This document shows, in pieces, positions 15,267-33,669 of a DNA stretch of 33,669 nt. The notes under the pieces are model-generated. The model made no database searches. It was not told where the DNA came from and saw only the letters and a program-made list of their open reading frames with translations. Position numbers and translations under genes: made by a program. Each line of letters starts with the position of its first letter. Positions within the stretch are counted from its first letter, which is position 1. Source of the stretch: Gallionellaceae bacterium (lineage in GTDB: Bacteria; Pseudomonadota; Gammaproteobacteria; Burkholderiales; Gallionellaceae); the NCBI GenBank assembly GCA_008080515.1, contig VIKH01000029.1:1-33669 (forward strand). Reading direction: 5' to 3'.

Positions 15267-15403
15267 GTTGAACCTCCCGGGATGGATAAGCCAAGGCAAC
15301 AAATGTGGATGAGTCGTGCAGCGTGTATCCTCCTGCTGCCTGGTGGAAACACAACGCTTTTCCCACCCTATCTTGGTTTTGTTAAGGAATTATTGGCCAG
15401 AAA

Positions 15404-15815: not shown

Positions 15816-17573
15816 TCATTTGGCCGGACTCCGTTGTTTTTCTCTCAACCACGACTCGAGCTGGTCAGCCGGCAGCGGTTTCGAGAACCGGTACCCCTGG
15901 ACAAACTCGCAACCGCTGGTTTGTGCCATGCTCAGTTCGCTGTCGGTTTCAACCCCTTCCGCAACCAGTTCCAGCGACATGCTTCTCCCCAACGCCGCAA
16001 TGGCCCGCACAATTTCGGCGTTTACCGGCTCCCGTTCCACATTGCGGATAAAGGACTGGTCCACTTTCAGCCGGTTGATGGGAAATCTTCTCAAATAACT
16101 CAAGTTTGAGTATCCGGTCCCGAAATCGTCAATCGCCAGTTTGACGCCCAGCTCGCGCAATTCGTGCAGGGTTTTAAGCACGGCTTCCACATCGTGCATA
16201 AACAGGCTTTCCGTGAGTTCGAGCTCAAGATACGCCGGTTGCATACCGCTGTCGGCGATGATGGAGCGCACCATCTCGCTGAATCCGGTTTGATAGAACT
16301 GCATCGCGGAAATGTTGACCGATATGCTCATGGGTTCCAAACCGTTTGCGATCCATGCCACCTGCTGTCGGCACGCTTCCCGAAGCACCCACTCGCCGAT
16401 GGAGACGATCAGCCCGGTTTCTTCGGCAATTTCGATGAAATGGATCGGGGAAAGCAGCCCGCGCTCGGGGTGCCGCCATCTTATTAACGCCTCGTTGCCG
16501 GCTATCTTCCCGGTGGCAAGCAGCACCTGCGGCTGGTAATGCAGCTCGAACTGGTTGCGCGCCAGGGCCGTGCGCAAATCGGTTTCAAGGGACATGCGAT
16601 CAAACGAATACAAATCCATACCCGGAACATAATGCCGCCAGGTATTGCGCCCGTTGCGCTTGGCTTCATACATGGCGGCATCCGCTTTTATTATCAGCCC
16701 GGTCGCATCTTCGTCGTCGCCGGGATACATTGCGGTGCCGATGCTGGCAGTGACGAACACTTCGCGCCCCATGATCTGCAAAGGCTGGTGCATCGCCTCC
16801 ACGATGCGCTCGCCCAGGATGTCGAGGTCACTCTGGGAATTCACATTCTCCACCAGGATCGTGAATTCGTCGCCGGACAAACGCGCGACCGAATCGCTTT
16901 TCCGCGCGCAAACGGTCAAGCGTTCCGCGACCGCGACCAGGAGCTTGTCCCCGAAGCCGTGACCCATCGAGTCGTTATAATGTTTGAAGTTGTCAAGATC
17001 TATGAACAGCAACCCCAGATGCGTATTCCTGCGGCCGGCTTTAATGATCGCCATGGCCAGCCTGTCCATGAAAAGCAGGCGGTTGGGCAGTTCGGTCAGA
17101 TGATCGAAGTGGGCAAGATAAAAAAGGTGGGCCTGCTTGCGCTGGGTGATTTCGTTCAACAAGCCATGGCCGTCCGCGACCCCGCTGTATTGCCCGTTAT
17201 CGGTGATGATGAACCCGCTCACCATATGCTGCATGCCGGCGTCAATAATGATCTTGGCAACATCATCAATCGAGGTTTCCTTGCCGACAATGATTGGGGT
17301 CTTATTCATGAAATCCGAAATCGGGCTCTTTCCGTAAATCTCCTTGGTAAATGGCTTGATAAAGCTTTCGACAAAAGTGTGGCGGTCAACGATGCCGCAG
17401 GGAATGTTGCCGCTATTGACCACCGGGATGGCAAAGATGGCCGGATTTTTCTGGAGCAGTTCCAGCGCTGCCAGGCATGTCGCCGAGTCCAGCACGGGCT
17501 GGATGAATTTCAGCAAAATTGCTACGGTGGGGCTCTCGTTTATCTTTTCCATGTGTGCGACCATCGTTGACAT
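15816..17573 (-). CDS. CBS-GGDEF-EAL cyclic-di-GMP turnover protein
   Basis: This is a 585-residue cytoplasmic protein without membrane segments. Residues about 15-145 form a CBS-type pair (FAIPVVNSGNIPCGIVDRHT; ISDFMNKTPIIVGKETSIDD) that may bind adenine nucleotides. A GGDEF domain follows (about 150-315) with DHLTELPNR and the active-site loop as SGDEF (233-237), a variant often still active. The EAL domain (about 325-575) keeps EALIRW (361-366), ELTES (452-456), DDFGTGYS (482-489) and VAEGVET (537-543), so phosphodiesterase activity is likely. It would make or break c-di-GMP in response to the CBS signal. It lies 84 bases after the coiled-coil gene and next to the PEP-CTERM-like gene, suggesting control of attachment or matrix. 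The start may be ATG 17573 or 17552. Confidence 0.92.
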   Translation of the reverse strand: MSTMVAHMEKINESPTVAILLKFIQPVLDSATCLAALELLQKNPAIFAIPVVNSGNIPCGIVDRHTFVESFIKPFTKEIYGKSPISDFMNKTPIIVGKETSIDDVAKIIIDAGMQHMVSGFIITDNGQYSGVADGHGLLNEITQRKQAHLFYLAHFDHLTELPNRLLFMDRLAMAIIKAGRRNTHLGLLFIDLDNFKHYNDSMGHGFGDKLLVAVAERLTVCARKSDSVARLSGDEFTILVENVNSQSDLDILGERIVEAMHQPLQIMGREVFVTASIGTAMYPGDDEDATGLIIKADAAMYEAKRNGRNTWRHYVPGMDLYSFDRMSLETDLRTALARNQFELHYQPQVLLATGKIAGNEALIRWRHPERGLLSPIHFIEIAEETGLIVSIGEWVLREACRQQVAWIANGLEPMSISVNISAMQFYQTGFSEMVRSIIADSGMQPAYLELELTESLFMHDVEAVLKTLHELRELGVKLAIDDFGTGYSNLSYLRRFPINRLKVDQSFIRNVEREPVNAEIVRAIAALGRSMSLELVAEGVETDSELSMAQTSGCEFVQGYRFSKPLPADQLESWLREKQRSPAK

Positions 17574-17657
17574 CTTCCACTCAGAGCCTCATGGCGCCCG
17601 GCGCCAAATTTCCCGCAAAACCATGCCCCGCTATTCCTGGCTCACGACACTTCGCCG

Positions 17658-18329
17658 CTATTGTCGCGATCGGTAAAGCTGCGCTTCCGCATGGTCGCGG
17701 GCGTTCTGGAAGCGGTTCTCGATTTCCACCCCTTTCAGCCCGGTCCACGGCTCCACATATTTCAGTTCCGCCTTCTCGTGCTGGCTCGCCATTTCATTGA
17801 ACAGATCGAGCAGGTTGGCGTTCTTCGCCTGGCACGCACCCACCTCGGTTTTCTGTTCCGCCAGGGCAAGCTCCAGGCCGGATTTCTCGCTGTTAAGCCG
17901 CTTGTTGAGCGCCTCGCTCTGCTGGAGCTGCTGCGCCGTCTCGACCTGTTTCTGCCGGGTCGCCGCCAGATCGTTGCTTGCCGCGAGCCGGGCGCTTTCC
18001 GCCTCGCGCTGGCAGGAAGCCAGTTGCGCGCCCTTTTCGGTATGCTCCGCCTGCAATTTGTCCAGTTCCCGCCGTTGCCTGGCAAGCTCTTTCCGGGCAG
18101 CGGCAAGCTTGATTTCTGTTTGTTCCTTGAGTGCGGCTTTTTCCTGTTCCAGCGCCGCCACATCCTGCTCGAACTTCTGCTGCATCTGTTGCATCCGGCG
18201 CTGGGCGGCACGCTCCTGCTTGTTTTTCGCGTCAGGTTCAGCCGCGAAAGAATACGGCGCGGACAGCAGCAGCGCCCCCATCAACAGAAAAATCGCACGG
18301 TCTCGACCGTTCTTTTTAGCGGGCTTCAT
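17658..18329 (-). CDS. Periplasmic coiled-coil protein of the Ton-like cluster
   Basis: This is a 223-residue protein. A signal peptide spans about residues 1-29 (FLLMGALLLSAPYSFA then AEP). Residues about 38-180 are almost pure heptad-rich Glu/Gln/Lys/Ala/Arg helix, a long coiled coil. A short conserved-looking tail (YVEPWTGLKGVEIENRFQNA and RDHAEAQLYRSRQ) ends the protein. I do not recognise a named family. The start is 5 bases after the stop of the porin gene, so the two are translated together, and it may trimerise or act as a spacer between the porin and the cell wall. Part of its 3' end has been copied twice into the region 15404-15795. Confidence 0.75.
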   Translation of the reverse strand: MKPAKKNGRDRAIFLLMGALLLSAPYSFAAEPDAKNKQERAAQRRMQQMQQKFEQDVAALEQEKAALKEQTEIKLAAARKELARQRRELDKLQAEHTEKGAQLASCQREAESARLAASNDLAATRQKQVETAQQLQQSEALNKRLNSEKSGLELALAEQKTEVGACQAKNANLLDLFNEMASQHEKAELKYVEPWTGLKGVEIENRFQNARDHAEAQLYRSRQ

Positions 18330-18334
18330 GTCGG

Positions 18335-19838
18335 TCAGAACCTGGAATTCAAGTCGAGCATCAGGACATCAATGGCCAGCGGCAACCCGCTGATTTCGTC
18401 GGTGCTGAACCAGCGCAGGCCGAACGAGGTGTTGGTGGCAATGCCGTAGCTACCCCCCAGCACCCAACCCTTGGCATCAGTACCGCCGAGATGAAAATCG
18501 GAATCCGTGTAGGCGTCCAGCACGGCATCGGCCCCGACCCGCTTGTACGCGCCAAAGACCTGCCAGTCGTGCCGGTTGGTGATTTTTGGCATGCCTGCCG
18601 CCAACCTGATCTGGTAGCCCTGATTCTCCTTCGGGTAGACGATTCCCGTGCGCCGCAGAATCTCGTCGGCATCGAAGCCGAGGTTGCGCACGTAATCACC
18701 CGTCAACACCAGATGTACGGGGTCGAACCTGGCCAGATCTATCTGGCCGGTCAGGTTAAGCTCGCGGAACCGGGAAGCCAGCCCGCAACCGCCGCTGCTC
18801 GTGCCAACGCCGCAGCTCGGCACGCCGCCCTTATTGATATCGAAGGTGCTGTTTCCCTTCTGGCGGGCGGCCAGCACCGTGCCGTCGTAGGCGGTGTCGC
18901 CGGGCACCAAAGTATTGGCCGTAGCTTGACCGAAGACTGGTTGGCGCTTCTCCATTCCATCCCCGCTTGCGCCCCAAACAGCCATTTATCTCTGGCCTTG
19001 TTGGTGTCGGACGACTGCACTTCCTCTATCGGGAACGCTCCGAGGGTGCCGAATGCGGACAGGCTGTCCGACATCCGGATGTCCATATTCGTCGCCACTC
19101 CGTCCAACGCCAGATCCTGATCCCATACCAGATCGGTAGAAAAGAACGGGTTGGCGAACCGGCCGCCGCTGACTGACAACCACGGATAGAGGCGCGCACT
19201 CAAAAAGGCGCGATCCAGCGCAAACGAATATTTGCTGTCCCGGGTGTTGAGCGTCTGGTTAGGCGAAACCGGATCCGTCGTCGAGCCGGTGGTCATGCGG
19301 ATGCCACCGGTCAAATCGTCGCCGAGCTTGGCATTTGCCCCCAGCCGGGCGCGAACGCGGAAGCGGCTGCGGTTGTCCGTGGTGTTGTCAACCACGTTGG
19401 CGTTGCGCGTCACGCTGCCCTTGAGGTTCGCGGGCAACACGTTCCCGGCAGGAAAACTCCCGGCAATGATCCCGGCGCCACCCAGCCTTCCGCTTGCGCC
19501 TTGGCCATGACCTCGTGTTTGATTTCTTCGCGCAATTCGTCCTTGACCGGCTTCGGAACGTATTGCACCCGCACTACATTCGGCTCACCTTTTGTCGGCT
19601 CGGTTTTTCCGACCGCGTTTTCCTGCTGTCTGGCGGCTTCCGCCTGCTTGATGATCCCCTCCGCCTTTTCCGGGGACAGCACGCCTTCCTGCACCAGAAG
19701 CTGGATCAGGTTGAGCGTGGTGGCGCGCAATTGCTCCAGAGATTCGCGTTCTGCCGCCAGCGCCGCAGGCGACGCCGCAAAGAATGAAAGTGCGGCCAAA
19801 CCGCAAAGCAGGAGCCGCTGTTGCCTGACAATTCGCAT
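18335..19838 (-). pseudogene. Putative outer-membrane porin, broken by two frameshifts
   Basis: Three frames together make one porin of about 500 residues. Part 1 (19838 to about 19450) has a signal peptide (LLLCGLAALSFFAASPAALA) and a helical stretch ESLEQLRATTLNLIQLLVQE, and reaches EGWVAPGSLPG. Part 2 (about 19460 to 18930) begins near ANLKGSVTRNANVVDNTTDN and holds barrel strands such as GGIRMTTGSTTDPVSPNQTL. Part 3 (about 18935 to 18335) runs from NTLVPGDTAYDGTVLAARQK to the terminal VLMLDLNSRF, ending in Phe as outer-membrane barrels do. At the first junction some residues also seem deleted. The gene is followed at once by the coiled-coil gene and preceded by tonB, so it was probably the outer-membrane partner of the Ton-like complex. 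Assembly indels could mimic this decay. Confidence 0.72.
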
Positions 19839-19894
19839 CTTTTTTATCTTTCCAAATAGGTTGTTATTGATCCGGCATGCTTTGAAGTTGATTG

Positions 19895-19960
19895 CCGTTC
19901 GTGCTGAGCTTGTCGAAGCACAAGAATCCATTCACATTTCGACAGGCTCAATGCGAACGG
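19895..19960. repeat. REP-like inverted repeat between tonB and the porin gene
   Basis: CCGTTCGTGCTGAGCTTGTC (from 19895) and, on the other strand, CCGTTCGCATTGAGCCTGTC (from 19960) form an imperfect inverted pair of about 23 bp around a 20-base spacer. The TGAGCTTGTCGAAG / TTCGACAGGCTCA motif is a widespread dispersed element of proteobacteria. It may shield or attenuate the transcript between tonB and the porin gene. Confidence 0.65.
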
Positions 19961-19988
19961 ATTCTAACCGGAAGCCGCCTCCCCGTGT

Positions 19989-20681
19989 TCATCCTGTTCT
20001 TTTCGCCGTAATGCGCAGCTTCACCGGCTGCGGCATATCTTCGGGGGGTCTTGCGGACAGAGAGGGCATGGTTGTCAGCGCGGCCTTAATCAGTTCGTCG
20101 GTAGCGGGGTCGCCGCTGGAACCGCCCAGCTCGACTTTTTCCGTGCTGCCGTCCGGCTTCAGCCAGATGCGGATCACCACCCGGTATTGGCCGTTGGCAA
20201 GCTGCTTGTCTTTGGCCAGGGCGTCCTCGATCAGCGCCTTGATCTGATCGGTGTAAAAGGCAAACCGGTAGGCGCTGTCGCGCCCGCCGATCCTGGTCTC
20301 TCCCCCTTGGTATTCGTTGGTCACCGCCCCGGCGGCGAACGGGCTGGCACCGTCGCCCGCCGCACCTTCCATCTTCAATGCTTCTGCTGGTGCGGGCTGC
20401 GCTTCCTGCGGCTTGGGCGGCTCGACTTTCATCTCCTTGGGCTGCTCTTTCGGCTGCTCCCTAGGTGGCGGCGGGGGGGGAGGGGGCGGGGCATCCGGCA
20501 GGATCCTGATATTGACGACCGGTTTTTTCTGCGGAGCATGGCCGGAAAACAGGCTGACCATCCCCGCTCCAATGCCATACAGGATCAGCAACAGTCCTGC
20601 AGCGATGGCGATGCGTGCGCCCCTGCCCCTCATAACCGGGAGCCATGAAGCGTCGGCCACCGCCATGCTGGCACCGCTCAT
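19989..20681 (-). CDS. TonB-family energy transducer
   Basis: This 230-residue protein is anchored by one helix (about 23-46). A periplasmic linker follows with a run of ten prolines and PKEQPKEMKVEPPKPQEAQP (about 63-100). The C-terminal domain (about 140-228) has the TonB beta-alpha-beta pattern, with VVIRIWLKPDGSTEKVELGG and the final PVKLRITAKR. It should carry the proton-driven movement of an ExbB/ExbD motor across the periplasm to an outer-membrane partner. The start codon shares a base with the exbD stop (TGATG), proving a shared transcript. No TonB-dependent receptor is in the window. The nearest outer-membrane protein is the broken porin, separated by a REP-like repeat. Confidence 0.85.
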   Translation of the reverse strand: MSGASMAVADASWLPVMRGRGARIAIAAGLLLILYGIGAGMVSLFSGHAPQKKPVVNIRILPDAPPPPPPPPPREQPKEQPKEMKVEPPKPQEAQPAPAEALKMEGAAGDGASPFAAGAVTNEYQGGETRIGGRDSAYRFAFYTDQIKALIEDALAKDKQLANGQYRVVIRIWLKPDGSTEKVELGGSSGDPATDELIKAALTTMPSLSARPPEDMPQPVKLRITAKRTG

Positions 20682-21085
20682 CAGGTGCCGATCCTGGCGG
20701 TGACCAGCCCGACATTCTTGATTTCGAGCCGGGTGATCAGATCAATCACCGCGATGATGCCGGCGTAAGGCGCATGCGCGTCGCCTTTGATCATCACGGA
20801 AAACTGGGAATCTTTGGCTTTGGCCGCATTGAGCTGGGCTTCCAGCTCCGCCGCAGAAACACCGATGCCGTTAACCAGGATCGCTCCTCCTTCCTGCACC
20901 TGCACGATCTTGACGTCGTGATGCTCGGTGCTGGGCTTGCTGGAGGGCTTGGGCAGATTCATGGTGAGCCCCTGCACCCCGGCGGTGGTCATCAGGATGA
21001 AAATGACCAGCAGCACATATGCCAGATCCAGCATCGGCGTGATGTTGATGGTGTCGTAAGGCTGGATATCGTTCTTGACCTGCAT
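20681..21085 (-). CDS. exbD: ExbD/TolR-family protein (second copy)
   Basis: This is a 134-residue protein with a cytoplasmic start, one membrane helix (about 18-38) and a periplasmic domain. The helix begins ITPMLDLAYVLLVIFILMTT, and Asp20 is the conserved proton-carrying residue of ExbD, TolR and MotB-type stators. The periplasmic part ends EIKNVGLVTARIG, the usual ExbD fold. It is about as similar to its upstream neighbour as paralogues in one stator usually are. It overlaps the other exbD and tonB by one base each (TAATG and TGATG), so the stoichiometry is set by coupled translation. Confidence 0.92.
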   Translation of the reverse strand: MQVKNDIQPYDTINITPMLDLAYVLLVIFILMTTAGVQGLTMNLPKPSSKPSTEHHDVKIVQVQEGGAILVNGIGVSAAELEAQLNAAKAKDSQFSVMIKGDAHAPYAGIIAVIDLITRLEIKNVGLVTARIGT

Positions 21086-21495
21086 TATTCCTGCACCCTC
21101 TTGGTCACCAGGCCGATTTCGGTGATACCCAGCTTCTTGCAGATTTCCAGCACCTCGGAAACCTTGTCATAGTGGGCGGCGGCATCGCCCTTGAGCACCA
21201 CCGGCAAATCCGGGTTGCCGCTTTTGTACCCCGCGAGGCGCTGTTCCAGCGTTGCCATATCCACCGGGTAAGCGTCGAGATACACCGAGCCGTCGCCGGT
21301 AACGGTGATCGCGCGCATCTGCGGTTTGGCCAGAGCCATGGTGCTGGAGGTATGCGGGATCTCCACCTTCACGCCCTGCACCGAGGCCGTGGTCATGATG
21401 ATGAAGATCACCAGCAAGACATAAGCGAGATCCAGCATCGGCGTGATGTTGATCTCGTCATACAGCTGGTTCTCTTCCCTCACATCCGCGGACAC
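21085..21495 (-). CDS. exbD: ExbD/TolR-family protein (first copy)
   Basis: This is a 136-residue ExbD homologue with the helix at about 20-40 (ITPMLDLAYVLLVIFIIMTT) and Asp22 as the proton-path residue. The periplasmic domain ends LGITEIGLVTKRVQE. It starts 11 bases after the ExbB-type gene and overlaps the second exbD by one base. Two distinct exbD genes in one operon suggest a heteromeric ExbD pair, as seen in some biopolymer-transport clusters. Its helix is nearly identical to that of the second copy, whereas the periplasmic parts differ, so the two may contact different partners. Confidence 0.92.
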   Translation of the reverse strand: MSADVREENQLYDEINITPMLDLAYVLLVIFIIMTTASVQGVKVEIPHTSSTMALAKPQMRAITVTGDGSVYLDAYPVDMATLEQRLAGYKSGNPDLPVVLKGDAAAHYDKVSEVLEICKKLGITEIGLVTKRVQE

Positions 21496-21506
21496 GGCCT
21501 ACCCCA

Positions 21507-23174
21507 TTACTTTCCGTGCAGCTCGGCGACGCGGGTGACAAACTCGTCAACGAAAATCTGCATCTCGATAGTGATGTTCTTGATGCGGCTGGCCAGATAG
21601 TTGTAGCCGAACAGCGCGGGGATCGCCACCGCCAGGCCGGCCACCGTTGCCAGCAGCGCGGCGGCAATACCGGGGGCAATGGCGTTGACGTTCACATCCC
21701 CGGCGGCAGCGATGGCGGCAAACGTGATCATCACGCCCACCACGGTGCCCAGCAGACCGAGGAAAGGCCCGCCGGAAATCGCGATGGTCAGCAGCACCAT
21801 CTTGTCGTTGATGCGCCGGGTTTCGCGCACCAGATCGGCATCAATGGCGGCCTTGATCGCATCCATCGAAGCGCCGCCCAGCGCCAGCGCCTCGCCCTGC
21901 TTTTCGCGCTTGCGGATTTCGCGCAAACCGGCCATGTAGAGCTTGTACAGCGTGGAGTCGGGCAGGGAGCCGCCGCTATCGAGCTGCAACAGATCCTGGC
22001 TGGCGCCCTGGAAGCGGTCGAGGAACTGCCGGTTATCCTGGTCGGTGCGCGAGATCAGGCGGGCCTTGGCGGCCATCACGGCGGCGCTGACCGCAAACAT
22101 CACGGCGAGAATCCCGATTACGATCTTGGCGTCCAGCGTCAGGCTGTTGACCAGAATGCCGATGTAGGAATCGCTTTCGCCGCCCTCCTCACCGTTTTCC
22201 GCATCGTGTACCGCGAGCAACTGGCTGTCCGCGCCCTGCCCGCTGGCGGCAAGCTTGATCCAGTCCGCGCTGCGCGCGACATTGGCGAGCTGCAACTCGT
22301 CCATTTCACCGGTGTAGTCTTTGCCGACCACGGCATCTGCCTGAACCTCGGCCAGCGCGACCTCGCCGCTGCCGACCGCGGCGCCATTGACGTAAAGCGT
22401 CGCCTTGCCCGCCTCTACCGTAACGGCCAGATGCTGCCATGCGGCGGGCTTGATCTCGCCGCCGGATAGTGCGGCCTTGCCTGCGATCAGCGCCAGCTTC
22501 TGCCCATCCAGCCGGATGCCGACATCATTCTGGCCGAACAGAACCGCCTGCTGCGGGATAGCTGCGGGCTTGATCCAGGCCGACCATGTAAAACCCGCGC
22601 CGCCCGATTTGACTGCCGGAACGGTGATCGGCTTGCCGCCGAACAAGGCGGCCTCGCCCAACAGCGCGGCTTTTTGCACCGCGATCTCACCGCTGGCAGT
22701 AAGGCCGCTGGCAGCGCTGTCCTGCAGCAGGGATTTTGCCGCAAAGTGGAAAACCGCCACCGCGCTGGCATCCGGCACTTTCCTGTCGCCAGCCGGGGCA
22801 GCGGCTTTCTCGTTGCCGTAATACAGCCAGAAATGGGCATCCTTGTCCTTCGGATCCACCTTGGGCAACTGCACCCAGATCACGGCCAGCTCGTTGACGC
22901 TGTCGAATTTCTCGATGTGGAACGCCAGCTCGGTCTTGTCGTCGTCGGCGATGAAGCGCAGGTCGGAACCGTCCGGCCTGGCGGCGATAAAGTTGAAGTT
23001 GCCGCTATGCAGCCGCACCGCCGCCGGAACCTGTTCCACCACGCCGCTCGCCGCTTGCGCGTTGACCGTTATCTTCTGGTGTACCGTCCAGTCCGGGCTC
23101 CATTCCGCATAGACAAGAGCAGGCAACACCAGCAAGACAGCCGCCATCAGGTTCAGTAAGTTACGCATCATCAT
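21507..23174 (-). CDS. DUF2341-LamG-ExbB fusion (proton channel with lectin-like periplasmic domain)
   Basis: This 555-residue protein has a signal peptide (1-23, LLVLPALVYA-EWSP). A DUF2341 segment (about 30-125) contains LRFIADDDKTELAFHIEKFD and HFWLYYGN. A LamG/concanavalin-like domain (about 140-310) contains FTWSAWIKPAAIPQQAVLFG and WQHLAVTVEAGKATLYVNGA. A membrane helix follows (348-369), and then the MotA/TolQ/ExbB domain (about 400-545) with SGGPFLGLLGTVVGVMITFA and PGIAAALLATVAGLAVAIPA. Ordinary ExbB is about 240 residues, so the first 340 are an added periplasmic module likely to bind sugar or a surface polymer. It is the channel for the two ExbD proteins and TonB encoded next. It lies 78 bases after the haemagglutinin frame. 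Any of three successive ATGs (23174, 23171, 23168) may be the start. Confidence 0.9.
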   Translation of the reverse strand: MMMRNLLNLMAAVLLVLPALVYAEWSPDWTVHQKITVNAQAASGVVEQVPAAVRLHSGNFNFIAARPDGSDLRFIADDDKTELAFHIEKFDSVNELAVIWVQLPKVDPKDKDAHFWLYYGNEKAAAPAGDRKVPDASAVAVFHFAAKSLLQDSAASGLTASGEIAVQKAALLGEAALFGGKPITVPAVKSGGAGFTWSAWIKPAAIPQQAVLFGQNDVGIRLDGQKLALIAGKAALSGGEIKPAAWQHLAVTVEAGKATLYVNGAAVGSGEVALAEVQADAVVGKDYTGEMDELQLANVARSADWIKLAASGQGADSQLLAVHDAENGEEGGESDSYIGILVNSLTLDAKIVIGILAVMFAVSAAVMAAKARLISRTDQDNRQFLDRFQGASQDLLQLDSGGSLPDSTLYKLYMAGLREIRKREKQGEALALGGASMDAIKAAIDADLVRETRRINDKMVLLTIAISGGPFLGLLGTVVGVMITFAAIAAAGDVNVNAIAPGIAAALLATVAGLAVAIPALFGYNYLASRIKNITIEMQIFVDEFVTRVAELHGK

Positions 23175-23252
23175 TAAAGTGGCTTTTCCAGAAGCGTTGA
23201 ATTGTATTAACCAATTGTTGCAGGACGGTTAAGGGTGGCTGGGTTCACGGAT

Positions 23253-24257: not shown

Positions 24258-27200
24258 CGTGTCGGAGCCGGCAGCAGCGCGCCCTGGTCGGGCAGGGCGG
24301 GGTTGGTGGTGTTGGCCACCGAGAGTATGCCGGAGGTATCGGCCAGATCCACGTTGCGCCCGGCCTTGACCAGCAGTTCGCCGGGGCCGGCGATTTGTAG
24401 CCGGGTATTTTTCTTGCCGGATGGAAGCCTGAAATCGCCACCTGCACTGACCGAGGTAAGATCGCTCGATGCACTATGCTGGATGTGCGCGTTCAGCGTG
24501 ACGTCGCCGTCGGCGCGGATATAAGCCGCCTTGGGCAAGGCCAGCCCCGGCCCTTTGGTGGACTGGTGTTCCGCGACATCGTCGCCGACCATCGTGATCG
24601 AGCCGTTTGCGGCCACGATGGTGACGGGCTCGTCGTCATCGGCGTGCAGCGGCGTGGCGGCATGTCCGGTTCTCAACTCGATCATCCTGGTGCCGAGCAT
24701 GGAAGAACTGGCCAGCGGGTTCGCGATGCCGGGCACCAGCGCCGGATCGGCATCCGACATGGCGAGATAAGCGACCCCCTCGGTGCTGACGTTGCCCGCC
24801 GCCAGCAGGTTCAGGTTGCCCTTGGGCGATGGGGCCATGACCAGCTTGCGCAGGGCGATGTTGCCGCTGAACGAAGTGGCCTCCACCGTGCCCGGATGCA
24901 ATTCCAGCGCCGGGGCAGCCGCAGTCGTCGAATTGTTCAGCCCGGTTGCGTTCTTGATATTGCCGCTCTTCTCCAGCCCGATCCTGACATCTCCGGCCAG
25001 AGAGCTTATCCGGAACGCGCTGCCGTCGCCGTAGGTCAGAAAGAAGGAGCTGTCGCCGTTCGTTCCCAGCGTATTGGTCACGTTCGAGGACTGCGCCCAC
25101 AGCGTGGGGTTGAACACCGTTTCGATGGATGCGCCACTGACGGCAGCAACCTCGGCGCTGGCGTCCTGCAGCGCCAGCGCGGTGCCGAACGTACCCGATG
25201 CAGCGCCAATTTCGCCGCCAGCAATCAAGCGAATATCGCCGCGCCCGGCATGGTAGACACCGCTCCGGATATCTCCCACGGCGCGCACCAGCACGTTGCC
25301 GCCGCCATCCACGCTGAAATTGCCGGAGCCGTCATCGGTATATCTTGCAGTCGTCGGCACGGAGGCGGAGAAATTGGTGATGTTGCCGCCCGCCTCGACC
25401 ATGACGTTGCCGCCGCCGAATGCGGCCACACCCTGCTTGAACAGGTCGGGGCGCACCCACCAGCTCACATCCTTGCCGCCGGTTCCGCCGCCCTGGCGGA
25501 ACAGCCACTGGTTGACCGTCTGCTGGGCGCCGCCGGAAAATGTTTTGCCGGTGATATTGCCCTGCGCCCGGATAGCGATGTCGCCGCCGTCCGTCAGGTA
25601 GCTGGCGGTGGTTCTGCCATTTTTGTTGGTCAGTGCCGATAGCGCTGGCGCATCGAAGCCCGTAACATCGTCGGCGGCAACCCCGGCGGTGTAAATTACC
25701 GAGGCCTCGTTGCCCATGGTCAGATCGCCGCCGGCAGCGATGCGGACATCCCCCGTCCCGGTTCGGATCAGCTTGCCATTGGCCAGCGTCAGATTGCCGG
25801 AGCTGGTGCTGCCGATGGTGTCGAGCGGATTGGCCGCCGCCGTGTCGGCGCCCGCGACCAGGCGGTAAGCCCACGATTTTCCGGACGCCAGATTCGCGGC
25901 AGGCGTCACGGCATCGAAACCGTCGTTGAGGCTGCCGTTCATCACCAGATTGCCTTTGGCCTTGAGTGTCAGTACACCCGCCCCGGCCATGGCGAGCGTA
26001 CCATTAGCCGTTGCGTCCAGATTCCAGTCACTGGACAGCGTCAGGTTGCCGCCGGAAGCGCGCACTTCGACCCCGGGCGCAAGCGTCGCCGCCACGCCAT
26101 CCTGCGTCGTCTTATAACCGGCCAGGATCGCGTCAGCCCTGCTGTTGAATGCCTGGGTGTCGGCTGCGAGCTGCAATTGCGCCTTGGTGTCCAGCGCGGT
26201 TTTTTCGTAGGCACGCACGGCTTCCAACCTCACCTCGCCCGCGCCGGTTACCGCCGCCGGAACATCCCCCGCCACATTGACTCCCGCGCCAACTGCGCCG
26301 GAGCCGTTGATGAGCGAGCCGCTTGCGTCACCGGAAACCAGTTGAAAACTGGTGCCGTCGTAAACGGCCAGATAAGTCTTGCCGGACTTGAGGTCGCTGG
26401 CTGCCGCAGCAGTCCCTCCTGCTTTCTGGATGCTCGCAAGCCCCAAGCCGTTCAGATGCAGCTTGGGGGTTTCGCCGGTATCCGCGTTCGGTGAAAAGGC
26501 GACGACATCCCCCCTAGTCAGCTTGCTGGAGTCAGCGAGGCCGGAAACGGTGGCAGCCATGGCGGAACCCGCATCGCCGGATATCAGCTTGAAACCGCCC
26601 AGCGCGCTGTCATAAATGGCATAGCCAACCTTACCCGAAGCGAGGTCGGTTTTTGCGGCAACGCTGCCGTTGCTCTTGTACAAGCCAGTCACGCCCAGGC
26701 CATTCACATACAGCTTGGGCGTATCGGTGAGTGAAGCATTGGGCTTGAAAGCAACCACGCTTCCATCGGCCAGGCCGGTCAAACCGGAAACGGTCGCGAC
26801 TACGGTTGAGCCCGCGTTGTTTGAAATCAGCTTGAAGCCGCCTTTGACGCTGTCGTACACCGCGAAATTGACCTGGCCGGACTTGACGTCGCCTGCTGCT
26901 GCCGGCGCACTGCCATCGCTTTTCAGGACGGGCTTGACGGTCAGCGCACCAATTTTTAACCTGGGGGTGCCGGTCGGTTGCGTGTTGGGCTTGAACGCCA
27001 CGATTTTGCCATCCGTCAGGGTAAACCCGGACACTGTGGCACTGATGGTCGAAATCCCGCTTGCGGTTGCAACCGTTGCAGCCACCGAGTTGTAAACCGT
27101 CCCAGTCACAGGGTTGTAAACCGCCGCCGCAACGGGGTTGAAGGCGCTATTGTCGGCGCCGGTGCGCCCCGCCCGCAGAGTGACCTGGCCGCTGTCGCCC

Positions 27201-30200
27201 ATGGTGTCGCCTGCCTTGCCGCCGGAAACATCAATTTGCGCGGCATTCGCCAGCCGGGTCACACCGTCCGCTGCAAACACTTCAGCCGAGACCGTGCCGC
27301 TGTCCGACGACAGCACGACACTGCCACCCGCCCCTTTCCCGTCGCCCACGGCAAGGCTGTCGCCCTCGCCGCGCGCCAGCAGCTTGCCTCCCGCCTTGAG
27401 TGTCAGGCCATGCTTCGCGTAGATCTCGATGCTGCCACCGTTGCTGCCGCTGGCATCTGCGGTGCCCGCCACGTCCACCTTGCCGCCATCGGCGCTCAAT
27501 ACGAATTGCTGCGCCAGCACGGTGTCGCCCGCCGCGATCGCCACATCCCCGCTGCGCACGCGCATGTCGCGCGACGCGATAAATCCGCCCTCGTTCAGCC
27601 GGGTGTTGAGCGCGCTGAAATCATCCAGCGTTCCGGTATCCAGCACGAAACTGCCTGCCTGCTGCCCGGCAACGGCCTGCCCATCCAGGGTGCCGCCCAC
27701 GGCTACGCTACCGCTGGTTGCGGCGACTTTCAGAGTGCCCGCATCGCCGCCCGCGCCGCCGGAAACGTTGATCGTGCTGCCGGTTTCGGTGTATACATTT
27801 CCGGCATCGGCCTGCAGCGTGACGCTGCCGCCCGGCGTATGCCTGGTAAATTTATCGAACGCCACCGGAACAGAGGCAACCTTGATGCTGGCGCCGTTCG
27901 CCACGATCAGATCGCCTGCGGTCGCCTGCGCGGCAAACTGCCCGGAAGGCAATTCCACGCTTCCGCCCAGGTTCATGCCGGTGGCCGCCACCATTTTGAG
28001 TTTTGCGCCCAAGCCGACGGCATCGGGCAGGGCGGCGGGAGCGGCGGCCTGCACCGTAGCCAGCGTGCCTGCTGCCGCAAGCGTGTAATCGGCGCCGGTG
28101 TCCGCACCGATGCGGGCGCTGGCGATATTGGTTTGGTTGGCATTTATTTCCGTTGAACCAGCCCCTTTGAAGATCACTTCACCTGCCGCGTTCAGGCTTG
28201 CCGTCTCAAAACCACCGATGACTGTTTTGCCGCCCGCGTTGCCGGAAAAGGTAATGGAATTTGCATTGACTTCCAGGCTGCTTGCCGCGCCCGTTGCGCC
28301 GGTCGGGGGCAAGTAAGCGGCTCCCGCCGAATTTTCGAGCGCCAGCTTATTCGCTGTCAGAGTCGCGATCTGGTTATCGGCCAAGTGACCGGCGATGCCG
28401 CCCGCATTGACGGTGAGGTCCAAATTACGGTTGCCGAAACTGACCGGGCCATAGACATCAATATTGCTTCTGCTGTTGAGGGTGAGCCTGGCGATGTCTC
28501 CCAGATTTGCTATCGCCGCATCATCCAGTTTCAGGCCGGTTTCATTGCCCGAATCGCCCAGCAGAATGCGGTTTGCGCCCAGCGTGGCCGACCCGCCAGC
28601 ATCTGCATCTATATTCCCGTTTAACGTGGCGGCCAGAGTCGAATCGAGCACGAGGGAGCGGCCGGCTTGAATACTCGCGCCTGCAACCACGTCCAGCGTA
28701 CCCGTTGCGGGGCTGGCTGAAGCACCGCTGCGGTCAAACTCGATGTCGTTGAGCGAAGATACCGCCAGCAAGGCACCGTCGCCGCTGGCGTGCAACCGGG
28801 TGACGCCGGTGGTTCGCTTGCTCTCTGCGGTGTTGATCGCCGCACCGCTATCCAGCGTCAGCGTATCTTTGGCCACTGCAACCAGCTCGCTCGCTTCCAG
28901 CGCATGTTCGGTATCGTTGGCAAAAGTCACCCTATCGGCGTTCGTGACGATGCTCATCCCGTTGCTGTCGTAGCTGCGGGTGCCCCCCAGCAGCAGGCTT
29001 TCCGCATTGAGCGCATTGAGCGAGTCCGCAGTCAGTTGCAGCGTTCCATCCTCTGCGCCGACAGCGGAAACCACGCTGATCCTGCCGGAAACAATATCTA
29101 CCTGCGCACCGCGCGCACCGTCGGCTTTTCCGGTCAGCAGGTCGGCATCCATCACCAGATTGGCGCTCGCATCCAGCACCAGTTGGCCGGCGTCCGATGC
29201 CAGGCGCGGCAGATCCCGGCCATCGCTTAACGCAAGCTCGCGGAAAAAGGGGTTGCCGGTGGTCAGCCGGTATTCCGCCGGCCCCTTGTAATCTTTGGTT
29301 CCATAGTTGTCGCGAAAGATAGCGCCATCCGTCACCCTGAAGGTGCTGTATGCGGCATCGCGGCTGGAACCGTCCAGCGTGGTACGGTAACCTGAAACCA
29401 GGGTCGCGCCGCCCGGCTGCGGCACGGCGCGCCCCGGCGCCACGCGGGACGTGCTCGCCTCCACCATGAAAGCGCCAGGCAGCAGCGCATAACGGCCCGG
29501 CAGCAAGATATAGGCGCCCGCCGCCAAGCCCGGTATGCCGGACAGATATACCGCATCGCCCGGTTTGAGGTCGGTGCCGATCTGGTAGTTGTAATCGAAC
29601 GGCGCGTATTCGCTCTGCATGGTTGGAACCACCGCATAGACGTTCGACTGCCCGAGAATATCCTTGGAGCCGCCGATGCCTTCGATCCACTCGTAGGCCA
29701 GCGTGTCGCCGCCGCCGGAGATGTCCACTCTGGCGCCAGCCCGCATCTCAACATTGACGGACTTCAGGCTGACGCGCTTGTCCGGCTGAGAACGGATAAC
29801 GCTGTCCATGTTGTCGGTATTGGGTCTGATGTCCAATGTCGGCTTGTACATATTCAATCCGCCCAACCCCGTCAAGCCGTAGGGGATCAACTGCCCTTCG
29901 GCTGAAACCGAGGTCAGACTGTCCGGCATCAGGGTCAGCCTGTCCGCCGCATCCAGCTCGATCTGGCCCAATGGAGCGAGCAGCGCGCCTCCCTGCACAA
30001 TCTCGTCCGCTTTCAAGATTAACTGGCCGCCCGCCGACAGCACCGGCTCAGGCGTTGCGCCGCCGGGCTGTACTTCGATGCGGCTGTTTGCGCCGGTCGC
30101 CTCGAACCGGAACTGCCCATTGGTGACCGGATAAACCTGCCGCGCGCGCAGAACGATCTCGCCGGGCGCCGCCAGCGATCCCGGGTAGTACGAGTTGAAG

Positions 30201-33200
30201 CCGCGACCGCGTATGTCCGTCCGGCTGTCCAGCAAGGTGGACTTGACCCCGGCCACAGCCAGGCTATTGCTCAAATCAATGAAATCTGCGGCCACCTCCA
30301 GTCTGGCATCGCCGGCAACCGGTGCCGAACCGCCCACGGCGCTGGTCAGGGAAATATATGGAGCCGACACGCGCGCCGTCCCGTTGCCGGTGACTTCGAG
30401 CAAACCGGCATCCAGCGTGAGCGCGGTGGGCACATCGAGATTCAGCCCGGAAGGCAGCACGATCCTGTCCTCCGGATTGGACAAGCTGACTTTCAAGCTG
30501 ACGCGGTCAAATCCCCCCTCGCTAATCTGTTGCGCGGAGATCGCGCCCGTGCCGACATCATCATCCGGGTTAAGGAGATCGGCGCCCGGGCTGACGATCC
30601 CGTCCAGCGCATCGCCTGCCTGCAACCCGTCCGCCCGGTTGGTTCTGTTCTGCGTGACGGTCAGCAGGCGCGCGCCGTTGGGATGGTCGGGGTGGCCGCT
30701 GACGTTCCCCGGTGTCTCGGTCGCACCGTTGAGGGCGAGCGCGAGTGTTCCGCCGGTGCCGCTGCCGGTCGCGACGCCGCGCAAATCGCCATCCAGCGCC
30801 AGCCCGTTGCGCGAGCTGACAGCGATGCTGCCCGCCGCGCCGTGCAGGGTTTCCCGCACGTACCCATCGGCGCCCGCAACATCTGCCTGCCCGGAAACGC
30901 CGGACACATCCAGCAGGCTGCCTGCTCTGGTGACGACTGCCGCGCGCTGCCCGCCATCAAGCGTGATATTGCCGCCGTTCAGCACCTTGGCATCGAGCAG
31001 GCCGCCGTTTGACGGGGTCAGTGCGTAGTAGCCAGCAGCGAGCAGCCGGGCGGTCTCGGCGACGAACAGGCTGAGGGTGTCGTCATAATCGAAGTTCGGC
31101 GTGGCCCCGGTAATGGTGGCGCTGATGTTGCCGGTCGGCGCGATCAGGCTGCCCGCGATAGTCATTTGCCCGCCCGCTGCCAGAGAAATGTTGCCTTTGT
31201 TGCCCGCGACCGATGGGTTATCGGTGCGCAGGGTAGCGCCGGCGAACACCACCAGATCGTCGCCTGAAGTGAAGCTCATGGAAGCCGGAGAACGCAGGTG
31301 ATCCGGCGGCAAGGCTGGTGCTGCAACCTGCTGTATCGGGTTGCCGCTCGCCAGCACCCCGAAGCCCGAGCGCGCCTGCAGAATCTGCATCTGCGGGTGG
31401 ATGACCGTGGAGCCGCCTCCGGCATCACCGATCAGCAGATCGGCGTCAGCCGCCGAGGCGTTCACGGTGTATTTCGAAAAACCGCCTTGCCCGAAGAAGG
31501 AGTCAGACAGCCAGAAGGTATTTCCTCCCACCGGTTGCTGGCCGCCCACTTGCACATCCTGCAGCGTGCTCAGGGTAAGCTCGCCGCCATTGCTGAAACC
31601 GAAAGACTGCACCTGGCCTTCATCCAGCCCGGCCAAGCCGCCGAGGGTAATGTTGCCGCCCTTGCCGCCTTTCAGTTTTCCGCCCGAGTTCAGCCAGGCT
31701 CCGGCGCTGGCATCCAGCAGCGTGTTCTCGCCCAGCGCGAGCGCATTGGCGCCCGCAACGGTTCCGGTAAGCGATATATTGCCGCCATCCAACGCGATGG
31801 GGGCCGTCTGCGCTCCGCCCAGCCCCGGCGTGTCGTTGGTCCACAGCCCGGCGGTGCTCAGGGTCACGCCATTCGCCACCCGCACCTCGCCGCCCGCAAT
31901 GTCAATACTGCCGCCCGGCGCCACAATATCGGCATTGATCGCGACGCCCCCGCCACCGGCCAGCCTGACGGAGCCTTTCGGGCTGGTCCTGACGGCAGCA
32001 TCCACGGTTATCTGGCCACCCTTCAGATCGAGATCGTCGAATCCGGAGCGCAGCAGCCCCATGCCCAACTGCGACTCGCCGGATTGCTCGACCGGCAACG
32101 CCGCAGTAGCAGCGAATCCGGCTGGCAACTTCCAGGCATCCTGCACCAGGCGGACCGCGCTGTTGAGCGCGACATGGAAGGCGCCTCCATCAGGCGACAT
32201 CTCGCGCTGGAAAACTCCGGCGCGGGTGTTCGCCCTGAATGTTCCTTCCAGCGCGGCTTGGTCTGCCGCAACCCGGATGCTGCCCGCAGCGCTGCCGTCG
32301 CTATAGCCCTGCTGCATGGTTCCGTGTGGCGAAGGCGCCATCGTCCAGGTGCGGGTCACCCCCCATTTCGGGTCGGTCACGCTGTAGGTTTCGCCGGTGC
32401 CCTGGTATATCTTGTCCGGCGTGGCCTCGGCAATCGGGATCAGCTTGCCGTTGTAGCGCAGGCTGCTTTCGCGGATCAGGCCGGATTGGTAAGTGATCGA
32501 GCCGCCGGAAACGTCCACCACGGCACCCTGGCGCACGATTACGCCGCCCGGGTCATCCAGCAGGGAAGAAGCATTGAGCGAGACGGTGCCGCCTTGGGAC
32601 AATTTTTCCGCCACGGTGCGCCCCTTGAGCGCGAGAAATGGCGCGATGTCGGTCAAAGGCGTGCCCTTGCGCGCATCCACGTAAATCTTTTCGCCAAACA
32701 ATGCTCCTCCCCGGAGCAGCGGGCTATCCTTCAATTGGTCGGAGTAGAGCTGGATTTCGAGCTGGTGGCGCGACATGGGTGCGGTCGCATCCAGGCCCGA
32801 GACATCTATCCTGGCGTGTTCGCCCAGATAGACACGGTTCTTCAACTCCTGGAATTCGGGGTCGGTATGGGCGGGAGCGCTTGAGGCATCGGATTTGGCC
32901 TCGACGGCCACGTTGCCGCCTCTGGCCTCGATCAGGCCATCCACTTCGATGCTGCGGCCTTCGATCCTGATGCGCGAAGGGGTGAATGCCTGCTGGTCCA
33001 GCACCTCCTCCTTGTCGCCGGTCTCGGCGCTCACTACGGTTTCGCTGGCCTGGCCGACCACCACCTTGCCGTAACGCATCCCGCCACCGGCATTGACAGT
33101 ATCCCGCGCCAGCAGGTGGATGGAGCCGTTCGCGCGCACCGAGGTGCTGGCCGAAATGCGGCCTTCCTGGTTCACCGCCAGCCCCACCAGCGTTACGTTG

Positions 33201-33669
33201 CCGCGCTGGGCAACGATCTCGCCGAGGTTCTTCGCGGCGCCTCCGGCGCTCACCTCCACCAGCAGCCCCGCCGGGTCTGCGCTGTCCGCGAGATAGACCT
33301 TTTCGCCCGCCGCCAAAATGGTCTGTCCGTCCGGCGTGGTAATCACGCCACTGTTGGTCACGTCTTTCGCCAGCAGCATCACGCGCCCGCCGCTGGCCGC
33401 CGTCAGCGCCGCCCCCTGCTCCACTCTGACGAAACCGCCGGTTCCGCTGAACACCGCTTTGGTGGAGTCGGAAAGAATGCCGTTATCGAACAGATCGTCC
33501 GTTACATCCAGCGTGCTTGCGGTCAGGGAGCCGACATTGATCTGCGCGCCGTTGCCGAAAATGATGCCATTGCCGTTGACGAAATACAGGTGCCCATCGG
33601 CCTTGACGTTGCCGGAGATCAGGCTGGGGTTGGCGTCGTGGATGCGGTTCAGCGCCGCCCAGGAACGGT
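24224..33669 (-). CDS. Giant filamentous haemagglutinin-like protein (N-terminus outside window)
   Basis: At least 3,147 residues are read from the right edge to the stop at 24224. The first visible residues include ALNRIHDANPSLISGNVKAD and GNGIIFGNGAQINVGSLTAS. This is the two-partner-secretion haemagglutination domain that guides export through a TpsB-type pore. Nearly all the rest is Gly/Ser/Ala/Asn/Asp-rich beta-helix (GSVRLAGGGGVAINADIVAP, GKGGNITLGGLAGLDEG). Three tandem 81-residue repeats of different character lie at 26303-27031. The signal peptide and first helix rungs lie beyond 33669. It would be secreted and stay on the cell surface as an adhesin or matrix fibre. The gene leads the ExbB/ExbD/TonB run on the same strand. 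No TpsB pore is in the window. Confidence 0.9.
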   Translation of the reverse strand, partial: RSWAALNRIHDANPSLISGNVKADGHLYFVNGNGIIFGNGAQINVGSLTASTLDVTDDLFDNGILSDSTKAVFSGTGGFVRVEQGAALTAASGGRVMLLAKDVTNSGVITTPDGQTILAAGEKVYLADSADPAGLLVEVSAGGAAKNLGEIVAQRGNVTLVGLAVNQEGRISASTSVRANGSIHLLARDTVNAGGGMRYGKVVVGQASETVVSAETGDKEEVLDQQAFTPSRIRIEGRSIEVDGLIEARGGNVAVEAKSDASSAPAHTDPEFQELKNRVYLGEHARIDVSGLDATAPMSRHQLEIQLYSDQLKDSPLLRGGALFGEKIYVDARKGTPLTDIAPFLALKGRTVAEKLSQGGTVSLNASSLLDDPGGVIVRQGAVVDVSGGSITYQSGLIRESSLRYNGKLIPIAEATPDKIYQGTGETYSVTDPKWGVTRTWTMAPSPHGTMQQGYSDGSAAGSIRVAADQAALEGTFRANTRAGVFQREMSPDGGAFHVALNSAVRLVQDAWKLPAGFAATAALPVEQSGESQLGMGLLRSGFDDLDLKGGQITVDAAVRTSPKGSVRLAGGGGVAINADIVAPGGSIDIAGGEVRVANGVTLSTAGLWTNDTPGLGGAQTAPIALDGGNISLTGTVAGANALALGENTLLDASAGAWLNSGGKLKGGKGGNITLGGLAGLDEGQVQSFGFSNGGELTLSTLQDVQVGGQQPVGGNTFWLSDSFFGQGGFSKYTVNASAADADLLIGDAGGGSTVIHPQMQILQARSGFGVLASGNPIQQVAAPALPPDHLRSPASMSFTSGDDLVVFAGATLRTDNPSVAGNKGNISLAAGGQMTIAGSLIAPTGNISATITGATPNFDYDDTLSLFVAETARLLAAGYYALTPSNGGLLDAKVLNGGNITLDGGQRAAVVTRAGSLLDVSGVSGQADVAGADGYVRETLHGAAGSIAVSSRNGLALDGDLRGVATGSGTGGTLALALNGATETPGNVSGHPDHPNGARLLTVTQNRTNRADGLQAGDALDGIVSPGADLLNPDDDVGTGAISAQQISEGGFDRVSLKVSLSNPEDRIVLPSGLNLDVPTALTLDAGLLEVTGNGTARVSAPYISLTSAVGGSAPVAGDARLEVAADFIDLSNSLAVAGVKSTLLDSRTDIRGRGFNSYYPGSLAAPGEIVLRARQVYPVTNGQFRFEATGANSRIEVQPGGATPEPVLSAGGQLILKADEIVQGGALLAPLGQIELDAADRLTLMPDSLTSVSAEGQLIPYGLTGLGGLNMYKPTLDIRPNTDNMDSVIRSQPDKRVSLKSVNVEMRAGARVDISGGGDTLAYEWIEGIGGSKDILGQSNVYAVVPTMQSEYAPFDYNYQIGTDLKPGDAVYLSGIPGLAAGAYILLPGRYALLPGAFMVEASTSRVAPGRAVPQPGGATLVSGYRTTLDGSSRDAAYSTFRVTDGAIFRDNYGTKDYKGPAEYRLTTGNPFFRELALSDGRDLPRLASDAGQLVLDASANLVMDADLLTGKADGARGAQVDIVSGRISVVSAVGAEDGTLQLTADSLNALNAESLLLGGTRSYDSNGMSIVTNADRVTFANDTEHALEASELVAVAKDTLTLDSGAAINTAESKRTTGVTRLHASGDGALLAVSSLNDIEFDRSGASASPATGTLDVVAGASIQAGRSLVLDSTLAATLNGNIDADAGGSATLGANRILLGDSGNETGLKLDDAAIANLGDIARLTLNSRSNIDVYGPVSFGNRNLDLTVNAGGIAGHLADNQIATLTANKLALENSAGAAYLPPTGATGAASSLEVNANSITFSGNAGGKTVIGGFETASLNAAGEVIFKGAGSTEINANQTNIASARIGADTGADYTLAAAGTLATVQAAAPAALPDAVGLGAKLKMVAATGMNLGGSVELPSGQFAAQATAGDLIVANGASIKVASVPVAFDKFTRHTPGGSVTLQADAGNVYTETGSTINVSGGAGGDAGTLKVAATSGSVAVGGTLDGQAVAGQQAGSFVLDTGTLDDFSALNTRLNEGGFIASRDMRVRSGDVAIAAGDTVLAQQFVLSADGGKVDVAGTADASGSNGGSIEIYAKHGLTLKAGGKLLARGEGDSLAVGDGKGAGGSVVLSSDSGTVSAEVFAADGVTRLANAAQIDVSGGKAGDTMGDSGQVTLRAGRTGADNSAFNPVAAAVYNPVTGTVYNSVAATVATASGISTISATVSGFTLTDGKIVAFKPNTQPTGTPRLKIGALTVKPVLKSDGSAPAAAGDVKSGQVNFAVYDSVKGGFKLISNNAGSTVVATVSGLTGLADGSVVAFKPNASLTDTPKLYVNGLGVTGLYKSNGSVAAKTDLASGKVGYAIYDSALGGFKLISGDAGSAMAATVSGLADSSKLTRGDVVAFSPNADTGETPKLHLNGLGLASIQKAGGTAAAASDLKSGKTYLAVYDGTSFQLVSGDASGSLINGSGAVGAGVNVAGDVPAAVTGAGEVRLEAVRAYEKTALDTKAQLQLAADTQAFNSRADAILAGYKTTQDGVAATLAPGVEVRASGGNLTLSSDWNLDATANGTLAMAGAGVLTLKAKGNLVMNGSLNDGFDAVTPAANLASGKSWAYRLVAGADTAAANPLDTIGSTSSGNLTLANGKLIRTGTGDVRIAAGGDLTMGNEASVIYTAGVAADDVTGFDAPALSALTNKNGRTTASYLTDGGDIAIRAQGNITGKTFSGGAQQTVNQWLFRQGGGTGGKDVSWWVRPDLFKQGVAAFGGGNVMVEAGGNITNFSASVPTTARYTDDGSGNFSVDGGGNVLVRAVGDIRSGVYHAGRGDIRLIAGGEIGAASGTFGTALALQDASAEVAAVSGASIETVFNPTLWAQSSNVTNTLGTNGDSSFFLTYGDGSAFRISSLAGDVRIGLEKSGNIKNATGLNNSTTAAAPALELHPGTVEATSFSGNIALRKLVMAPSPKGNLNLLAAGNVSTEGVAYLAMSDADPALVPGIANPLASSSMLGTRMIELRTGHAATPLHADDDEPVTIVAANGSITMVGDDVAEHQSTKGPGLALPKAAYIRADGDVTLNAHIQHSASSDLTSVSAGGDFRLPSGKKNTRLQIAGPGELLVKAGRNVDLADTSGILSVANTTNPALPDQGALLPAPTRCARLPSICAS
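26303..27031 (-). repeat. Three tandem 243-bp (81-residue) repeats inside the haemagglutinin
   Basis: Units at 26789-27031, 26546-26788 and 26303-26545 are each exactly 243 bases. Each encodes the order SG-L..G-VVAFKPNA, TPKLYVNGLG, a Lys-Ser/Ala-Gly-Gly block, DL.SG..YAVYD and FKLISGDAG. They are clearly diverged from each other. The unit resembles repeats found in phage tail-fibre proteins (pattern: function of a parameter, NVNGLG, GDL, YDGTNFQLV). It differs from the beta-helix on both sides and so looks like an inserted domain array. Confidence 0.8.

Follow-up and report, generated by a model that had tools for sequence, protein, structure and literature searches.

Introduction

In Pseudomonas aeruginosa, the genes of a two-partner secretion (TPS) system are arranged in the order pdtA-phdA-pdtB-exbB2-exbD2-tonB4-PA0696-PA0697-PA0698-PA0699, in which PA0696 is a putative outer-membrane porin and PA0699 a PPIase (PMC7035377). 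The cluster is phosphate-regulated (PMC4971064, PMC9769906), its TonB system has been called still uncharacterised (PMC7035377), and it has already been noted that TPS, exbBD and PA0696 homologues are found together in several genera (PMC2729926). In the portions of the literature that we searched, we found no account of the role of the motor, either in TPS systems with ExbB and TonB or in the P. aeruginosa cluster, and the literature searched made no mention of DUF3739. The pdt-type kind of locus described here is thus already known; new within the literature searched are the exclusiveness of the association, a motif in the porin, a tail peptide on the adhesin and a separate clade of TpsBs.

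Gene content and layout of the locus

The window (the whole stretch of DNA that was analyzed, 33669 bases) is contig C27 of a draft genome of 2.9 Mb in 183 contigs. Its minus strand carries the genes for a giant adhesin, an ExbB fusion, two ExbD proteins, TonB, a Porin_5 protein, a coiled-coil protein and a CBS-GGDEF-EAL protein (Table 1). The motor genes are uninterrupted, with one-base overlaps at 21085 and 20681. A first-pass annotation had described this run of genes; those from the adhesin to the CBS-GGDEF-EAL gene are indeed real and lie on one strand, with the one-base overlaps within the motor, but the adhesin and porin frames are broken, and both the secretion partner TpsB and the known counterpart in P. 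aeruginosa had been overlooked. In this assembly, the breaks affect the adhesin and the porin but spare the motor genes that lie between these two; the frames were searched separately, unjoined, and their interruption reflects either an assembly error or decay.

Two neighbors that had been listed with the run, the CBS-GGDEF-EAL and the PEP-CTERM-like genes, were rejected as parts of the module. A tblastn search at E 1e-4 recovered neither of them from 49 related loci, a number of these being short or ending before the downstream side, and the PEP-CTERM-like gene lies outside the interval 15816..33669. Further along the window (1934-8926), genes for EpsL (XrtB/PEP-CTERM-associated), EpsD, a CAAX-type protease and a glycosyltransferase make up an exosortase-type polysaccharide locus.

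Table 1. Features of the locus; coordinates are those of the window unless a locus is named.
Feature	Coordinates	Strand	Evidence
TpsA, giant filamentous-haemagglutinin-type adhesin, TPS domain at start, 5' end missing	24224..33667	-	PF05860 1.2e-17
TpsA C-terminal part, shifted frame, DUF3739 and strand-like terminal peptide	23253..24257	-	PF12545 2.1e-37; tail motif
ExbB fusion: signal-like start, DUF2341, Laminin_G_3, MotA/TolQ/ExbB channel	21507..23174	-	Pfam; hydropathy; T477/T510 invariant
ExbD 1	21085..21495	-	PF02472 7.9e-27; TPMLD motif
ExbD 2	20681..21085	-	PF02472 4e-23; TPMLD motif
TonB: membrane anchor, proline-rich linker, TonB_2 C-terminal domain	19989..20681	-	PF13103 1.1e-09
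Porin_5 N-terminal piece, with VRVQYVP motif	19410..19931	-	PF16930 positions 2-97 of 535
Porin_5 middle piece, other frame	18751..19440	-	PF16930 positions 146-318 of 535, at 18922-19413
Porin_5 C-terminal piece, other frame	18335..18985	-	PF16930 positions 344-535 of 535
Coiled-coil secreted protein, signal-like start	17658..18329	-	no Pfam family; relatives have related gene after porin
CBS-GGDEF-EAL gene	15816-17573	-	
PEP-CTERM-like gene	14427-15302		16.5 bits vs cut-off 50
TpsB (POTRA_2 and ShlB), right end of contig C79, cut by contig end	L041:6032-7387	+	Pfam

The motor and its ExbB fusion

Pfam places DUF2341 at aa 68-130, Laminin_G_3 at aa 182-307 and the MotA_ExbB channel domain at aa 430-539 of the ExbB fusion. 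Against the NCBIfam profiles, the protein scores 71.1 bits for exbB (cut-off 206.2) and 138.4 bits for tolQ (cut-off 221); by these scores, it is a relative of both and neither of them itself. The window proteins comprise the ExbB channel domain, the ExbD membrane aspartate and the TonB C-terminal domain. The threonines T477 and T510 are invariant in an alignment of 20 ExbB sequences (A3), and each of the 54 distinct ExbD frames recognized by the motif pattern retains the aspartate; seven of 53 loci have no pattern-fitting ExbD frame, among them L083, which has VTPFVD. Since these residues are conserved, the motor should run, as far as can be predicted from its sequence. The presence of two ExbD proteins was rejected as a general feature of such loci: it was seen in L003-L009, L025 and Aquabacterium, and most others have one.

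As judged from hydropathy, the DUF2341-LamG part of the fusion is preceded by a signal-like hydrophobic start (aa 1-27) and followed by the first ExbB transmembrane segment (aa 337-375). ExbB membrane topology places an N-terminal segment of this kind in the periplasm. Because of its position in the chain and this topology, the DUF2341-LamG part is predicted to be periplasmic. This bears on the earlier proposal that the LamG domain of ExbB detects a glycan at the cell surface and thereby drives the handling of adhesin or polysaccharide. The Laminin_G_3 domain is real, and its sequence relatives among the domains of solved proteins include one of an arabinanase; LamG-type folds also bind proteins, however, and a domain predicted to reside in the periplasm is unlikely to sense a surface glycan, so that we find this proposal hardly credible.

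As had been stated in the first-pass annotation, the locus lacks a TonB-dependent receptor: Pfam searches of 20 window frames gave no match to such a receptor or plug. Five TonB-dependent receptor plug matches are found elsewhere in the genome, and another ExbB of this genome lies about 4 kb from a plug of this type (contig C37).

The adhesin and its secretion partner

The adhesin gene is cut at its 5' end by the end of contig C27 at 33669, and its match to the TPS secretion domain covers profile positions 62-248 of 252 (PF05860, start cut by the contig end). Over 415 columns, the N-terminal part of the window adhesin is 57% identical to that of the relative L047. The corresponding TpsB was found on contig C79; it scores 585 bits against the profile of motor-linked TpsBs, whereas the other TpsBs of this genome that were fetched reach at most 240. 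Its truncation by the end of contig C79 agrees with the loss of the 5' part of the adhesin gene, and the two genes, present on separate contigs, may be adjacent. Both parts of a type Vb system are present, the TPS domain of TpsA on contig C27 and the POTRA and ShlB barrel domains of TpsB on contig C79.

TpsB is encoded at the locus in 23 of 26 relatives, and the remaining three are short contigs (L003, L009, L025). It directly precedes the adhesin in each of the six relatives whose upstream side was fetched, and the ExbB fusion in 17 other relatives; all 15 genomes searched (loci L013 and L016 left out) contain a ShlB match. Adhesin sequence was detected in 18 of the 23 longer relative loci, and in the other five it may lie beyond the 10 kb flanks. 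In a TpsB tree whose non-linked rows were trimmed to their match with the linked profile, many of them therefore being short, the 33 linked rows form one clade (100/100 support) and the 22 others fall outside it. A TonB box ahead of the POTRA domain of TpsB was considered and rejected, since no conserved motif was found there among 16 TpsBs.

A secreted protein of about 510 residues is encoded near TpsB in seven loci (L041:4322-5842, on contig C79 before TpsB, and L045-L050). The four copies scanned have no Pfam family, and a profile of the protein resembles, weakly and in part, a phosphate-binding protein (E 0.011 to 4ecf).

The DUF3739 adhesins end with a variable linker followed by a strand-like peptide, e.g., LTVEVLGFG. 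Within the last 110 residues, a loose pattern for this peptide is found in 29 of 30 adhesins and a stricter one in 25 of 30, compared to 4 and 1, respectively, of 570 control windows taken from adhesin bodies; the peptide is short, and the patterns were fitted to the same sequences on which they were counted. Mean information amounts to 2.35 bits per column in the last tail block vs. 1.68 in the linker block. The peptide is followed by at most 17 residues in most adhesins and by 26-67 in seven.

The porin

The three pieces of the window porin jointly match the Porin_5 profile (Table 1), and no plug family is among their Pfam matches. The strand-like motif VRVxYVPE, or a close variant of it, is present in 51 of 51 full-length porins read (two sets, which may share species); like the adhesin tail peptide, it is short and was counted with a pattern fitted to these very sequences. 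A flexible linker precedes the motif, and a helix and then the barrel follow it. In one set, a narrow version of the pattern recognized 13 of 23 porins and a wider version 23 of 23; in the other set, the wider version recognized 23 of 24, and the motif of L095 was seen by eye. Variants occur in L095, L150 and L154 (VRVQFVP, IRVPYLS and VRVPYVS, respectively). The motif is found in 0 of 18 weak Porin_5-like proteins.

In 22 of 24 full-length porin loci, TonB was located beside the porin by profile, and in L095 by eye; in L091, the last of the 24, the motor lies further away on the same contig. We rejected the notion that Porin_5 is a general porin with accidental neighbors: 16 loci with weak, shorter Porin_5-like proteins, which are part of the weak matches and in some cases stand on short stretches, have no motor or TPS gene. 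Weak matches only are found in 26 of the 50 matched genomes, and in L097 about 5 kb separate one further weak copy from the full set.

A porin that is tied to the motor and bears such a motif would suit a function in uptake, in which the adhesin captures a surface ligand and the Ton motor opens Porin_5 via the TonB-box-like segment and thereby imports the ligand. There is a precedent in HxuA-HxuB-HxuC, where HxuA feeds the TonB-dependent transporter HxuC (PMC5422565), and the P. aeruginosa cluster is induced by phosphate starvation alongside a secreted phosphatase; the protein of about 510 residues encoded before TpsB fits as well. The likeness of this protein to a phosphate-binding protein is weak, however, and the substrate is hypothetical; the window porin pieces match no plug family, and TpsB, together with the PPIase of many relatives, indicates export. 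Although uptake is the main rival to the reading that we prefer, we consider it doubtful.

Co-occurrence across genomes

In a class sample of 360 genomes, full-length Porin_5 was found in 24, the fused ExbB in 22, DUF3739 in 23 and all three in 21, with a DUF3739 match below the cut-off in G237 excluded. The thresholds for the fused ExbB, which was scored by its N-domain (200 bits here, 150 bits in the phylum sample below), and for full-length porins were all set by eye at gaps in the lists. Within the 360, every genome with DUF3739 or the fused ExbB also contains the porin; the porin occurs without the fused ExbB in G115 and G214 (porin near contig end) and without DUF3739 in G118. Fisher tests gave 3e-33, 2e-35 and 1e-30 when the genomes were taken as independent, which they are not fully. 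The match starts of porin and ExbB lie 2.9-3.9 kb apart in 20 of the 21 genomes that have both on one contig, and 29 kb apart in G024. In a phylum sample of 180 genomes, each of the three families was found in five genomes, identical for all three families; three of these five are shared with the class sample.

ShlB, the TpsB family, was detected in 148 of the 360 class genomes; a TPS system alone therefore does not bring the motor with it, and most such genomes are without the module. The gene set recurs in the relatives and in the genome samples beyond chance, and TpsA (DUF3739), TpsB, the fused ExbB, ExbD, TonB, Porin_5 and the coiled-coil protein belong to one recurring module. That the fused ExbB, full-length Porin_5 and DUF3739 co-occur nearly one to one, and that another ExbB is placed near a receptor plug, supports the earlier suggestion of a dedicated motor.

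Spread, gene order and exceptions

The nearest relatives by the ExbB fusion are mostly Methylophilaceae, with L003 as the closest full-length one; by recorded name, the relatives include Bradyrhizobium, Inquilinus, Rhodoblastus, Rhodocyclaceae, Comamonadaceae and Verrucomicrobia. On L025, a short contig called Verrucomicrobia, the ExbB is 84% and the ExbD proteins are 82 and 77% identical to those of the window, and this contig may be mis-binned. The adhesin is found upstream, downstream (two Verrucomicrobia records and Methylosinus) or in divergent orientation (two genomes), with the genes still together. A match is present in 16 plasmid records; in 11 of them, 80% or more of the fused protein is encoded at a single site. 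We read five plasmid loci, and those of Aquabacterium, Methylosinus, Klebsiella and Cupriavidus have TpsB, ExbB, ExbD, TonB and the porin; the adhesin is visible in the stretch for three of these four. The module is thus carried on plasmids of alpha-, beta- and gammaproteobacteria.

The class sample contains 25 copies of the fused ExbB, and 22 of them accompany the set: 20 lie within 4 kb of the porin, one at 29 kb on the same contig and one beside the adhesin on a short contig. The other three (L120, L121 and L122) have ExbD and TonB, and no porin or TPS gene within 20 kb; two are located near V-type ATPase genes and one near type II secretion genes, their ExbD motif is VTPLMD, and each of their genomes also carries the full set. 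A fused ExbB copy on a Methylomagnum plasmid stands alone in the stretch shown, for which the gene table is incomplete. These exceptions show that the fused ExbB family has a second context. Wide occurrence of the fused ExbB apart from the set had been named in the first-pass annotation as speaking against its proposal; the copies apart from it are a minority, i.e., 3 of 25 plus that of Methylomagnum. A fused ExbB-ExbD-TonB group near phosphatases, with neither porin nor TPS, was also observed (L152).

It is conceivable that these genes are neighbors only, the motor serving receptors elsewhere and the association being inherited without function. Five receptor plugs in the genome and the 3 of 25 fused ExbBs found away from the set would be in keeping with this; the co-occurrence across many genera, in altered gene orders and on plasmids, and the adjacency of another ExbB to a receptor argue against it and make it very improbable.

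In L016 (4209-5812), a protein with STN plus TonB domains and a second TonB-type protein are encoded close behind the adhesin, and ECF sigma and FecR genes are present too; L017, L023 and L026 have a similar arrangement by profile. Signaling is the reading suggested by genes of this kind: the TonB-type domains would read the state of the adhesin in the outer membrane and pass it on to an ECF sigma factor through the STN protein and a FecR-type anti-sigma factor. The STN plus TonB domains behind the adhesin in a Bradyrhizobium locus and, by profile, in three more, the sigma factor and FecR-type genes in the Methylosinus and Klebsiella plasmid loci, and PUMA3 of P. aeruginosa accord with it. There is no such regulator among the window genes scanned, however, and expression of the regulon in low phosphate persists in a vreA mutant (PMC4971064); we regard signaling as unlikely.

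A proposed mechanism

The reading that we prefer, and hold to be somewhat probable, is that of a TPS system with its own Ton-type motor, which would act on the export, anchoring or release of the DUF3739 adhesin. As is usual for TPS systems, passage of the adhesin through the outer membrane would depend on TpsB. ExbB-ExbD would use the proton gradient to move TonB, whose C-terminal domain might grip a strand-forming peptide, namely the VRVxYVPE segment of the porin, which would sit in its N-terminal periplasmic part, and/or the C-terminal peptide of the adhesin; in this way the motor would complete, anchor or release the adhesin. In an ExbB pentamer, the DUF2341-LamG domains might form a periplasmic ring around TonB and ExbD, and the coiled-coil protein, together with the PPIase in many relatives, may act as periplasmic chaperones.

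TonB boxes are short strands on flexible arms, and the N-terminus of a TPS adhesin exits first; the C-terminus of the adhesin would therefore be the last part in the periplasm. The porin motif and the adhesin tail, recognized by their sequence features, are possible candidates for TonB grips. Tentatively, we envisage a powered variety of TPS in which TonB grips the C-terminal peptide of the DUF3739 adhesin and/or VRVxYVPE of the porin, proton flow completes, holds or releases a fiber of more than 3,000 residues and, where STN and ECF genes are present, the grip reports the state of the adhesin.

Several observations speak against this reading. No energy gradient is required for type V export as the literature describes it (PMC5422565), and PdtA/PdtB of P. 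aeruginosa are called a functional TPS, with no need for the motor stated (PMC7035377). Mutants in tpsA, tpsB, the tonB homologue and PA0696 had wild-type virulence in zebrafish embryos when the sigma factor was overexpressed (PMC2729926). The set does not accompany three of the 25 fused ExbBs, nor one plasmid copy, and the adhesin and the porin are interrupted in this genome.

In the genomes sampled, DUF3739 adhesins always occur with their own porin and nearly always with their own Ton motor, which suggests an exception to the gradient-free type V secretion (PMC5422565) and that a powered machine serves this adhesin class, in contrast to its relatives. The module provides a set of partners and a testable role for a Ton system that has been called uncharacterised in P. 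aeruginosa, and likewise offers a testable role for the DUF2341-LamG addition on ExbB.

Comparison with known systems

With type Vb systems, the locus shares the TPS domain on TpsA and the POTRA and ShlB barrel domains on TpsB; it differs in that type Vb secretion is described as unpowered (PMC5422565), whereas a motor and a porin accompany the pair here and the TpsBs form a separate clade. The same three families as in ExbB-ExbD-TonB systems are present with conserved channel residues, but the window ExbB carries the fused DUF2341-LamG part, and no receptor is found among the window genes scanned. DUF2341 is among the N-terminal additions named for non-flagellar motor subunits (PMC12505986); the accessible part of that paper gives no partner or function for it. 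As with Oar and PopC of Myxococcus xanthus, a Ton system would serve protein secretion (PMC6434023). Oar, however, is a TonB-dependent transporter, while the outer-membrane proteins here are TpsB and the porin.

The closest likeness is to PUMA3/pdt of P. aeruginosa. When the window and contig C79 are compared with the published gene list rather than with its sequences, TpsA, TpsB, ExbB, ExbD, TonB, the porin and a secreted protein are common to both, the coiled-coil protein of the window occupying the place of PA0697; several relatives of the window locus also have the PPIase and YbjN (PMC2729926, PMC7035377, PMC4971064). Unlike PUMA3/pdt, the window locus has two ExbD proteins, and no vreAIR-type regulators were found among the window frames scanned. 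The findings point to a real, conserved and little-studied machine, with the locus as one member of the pdt-type class.
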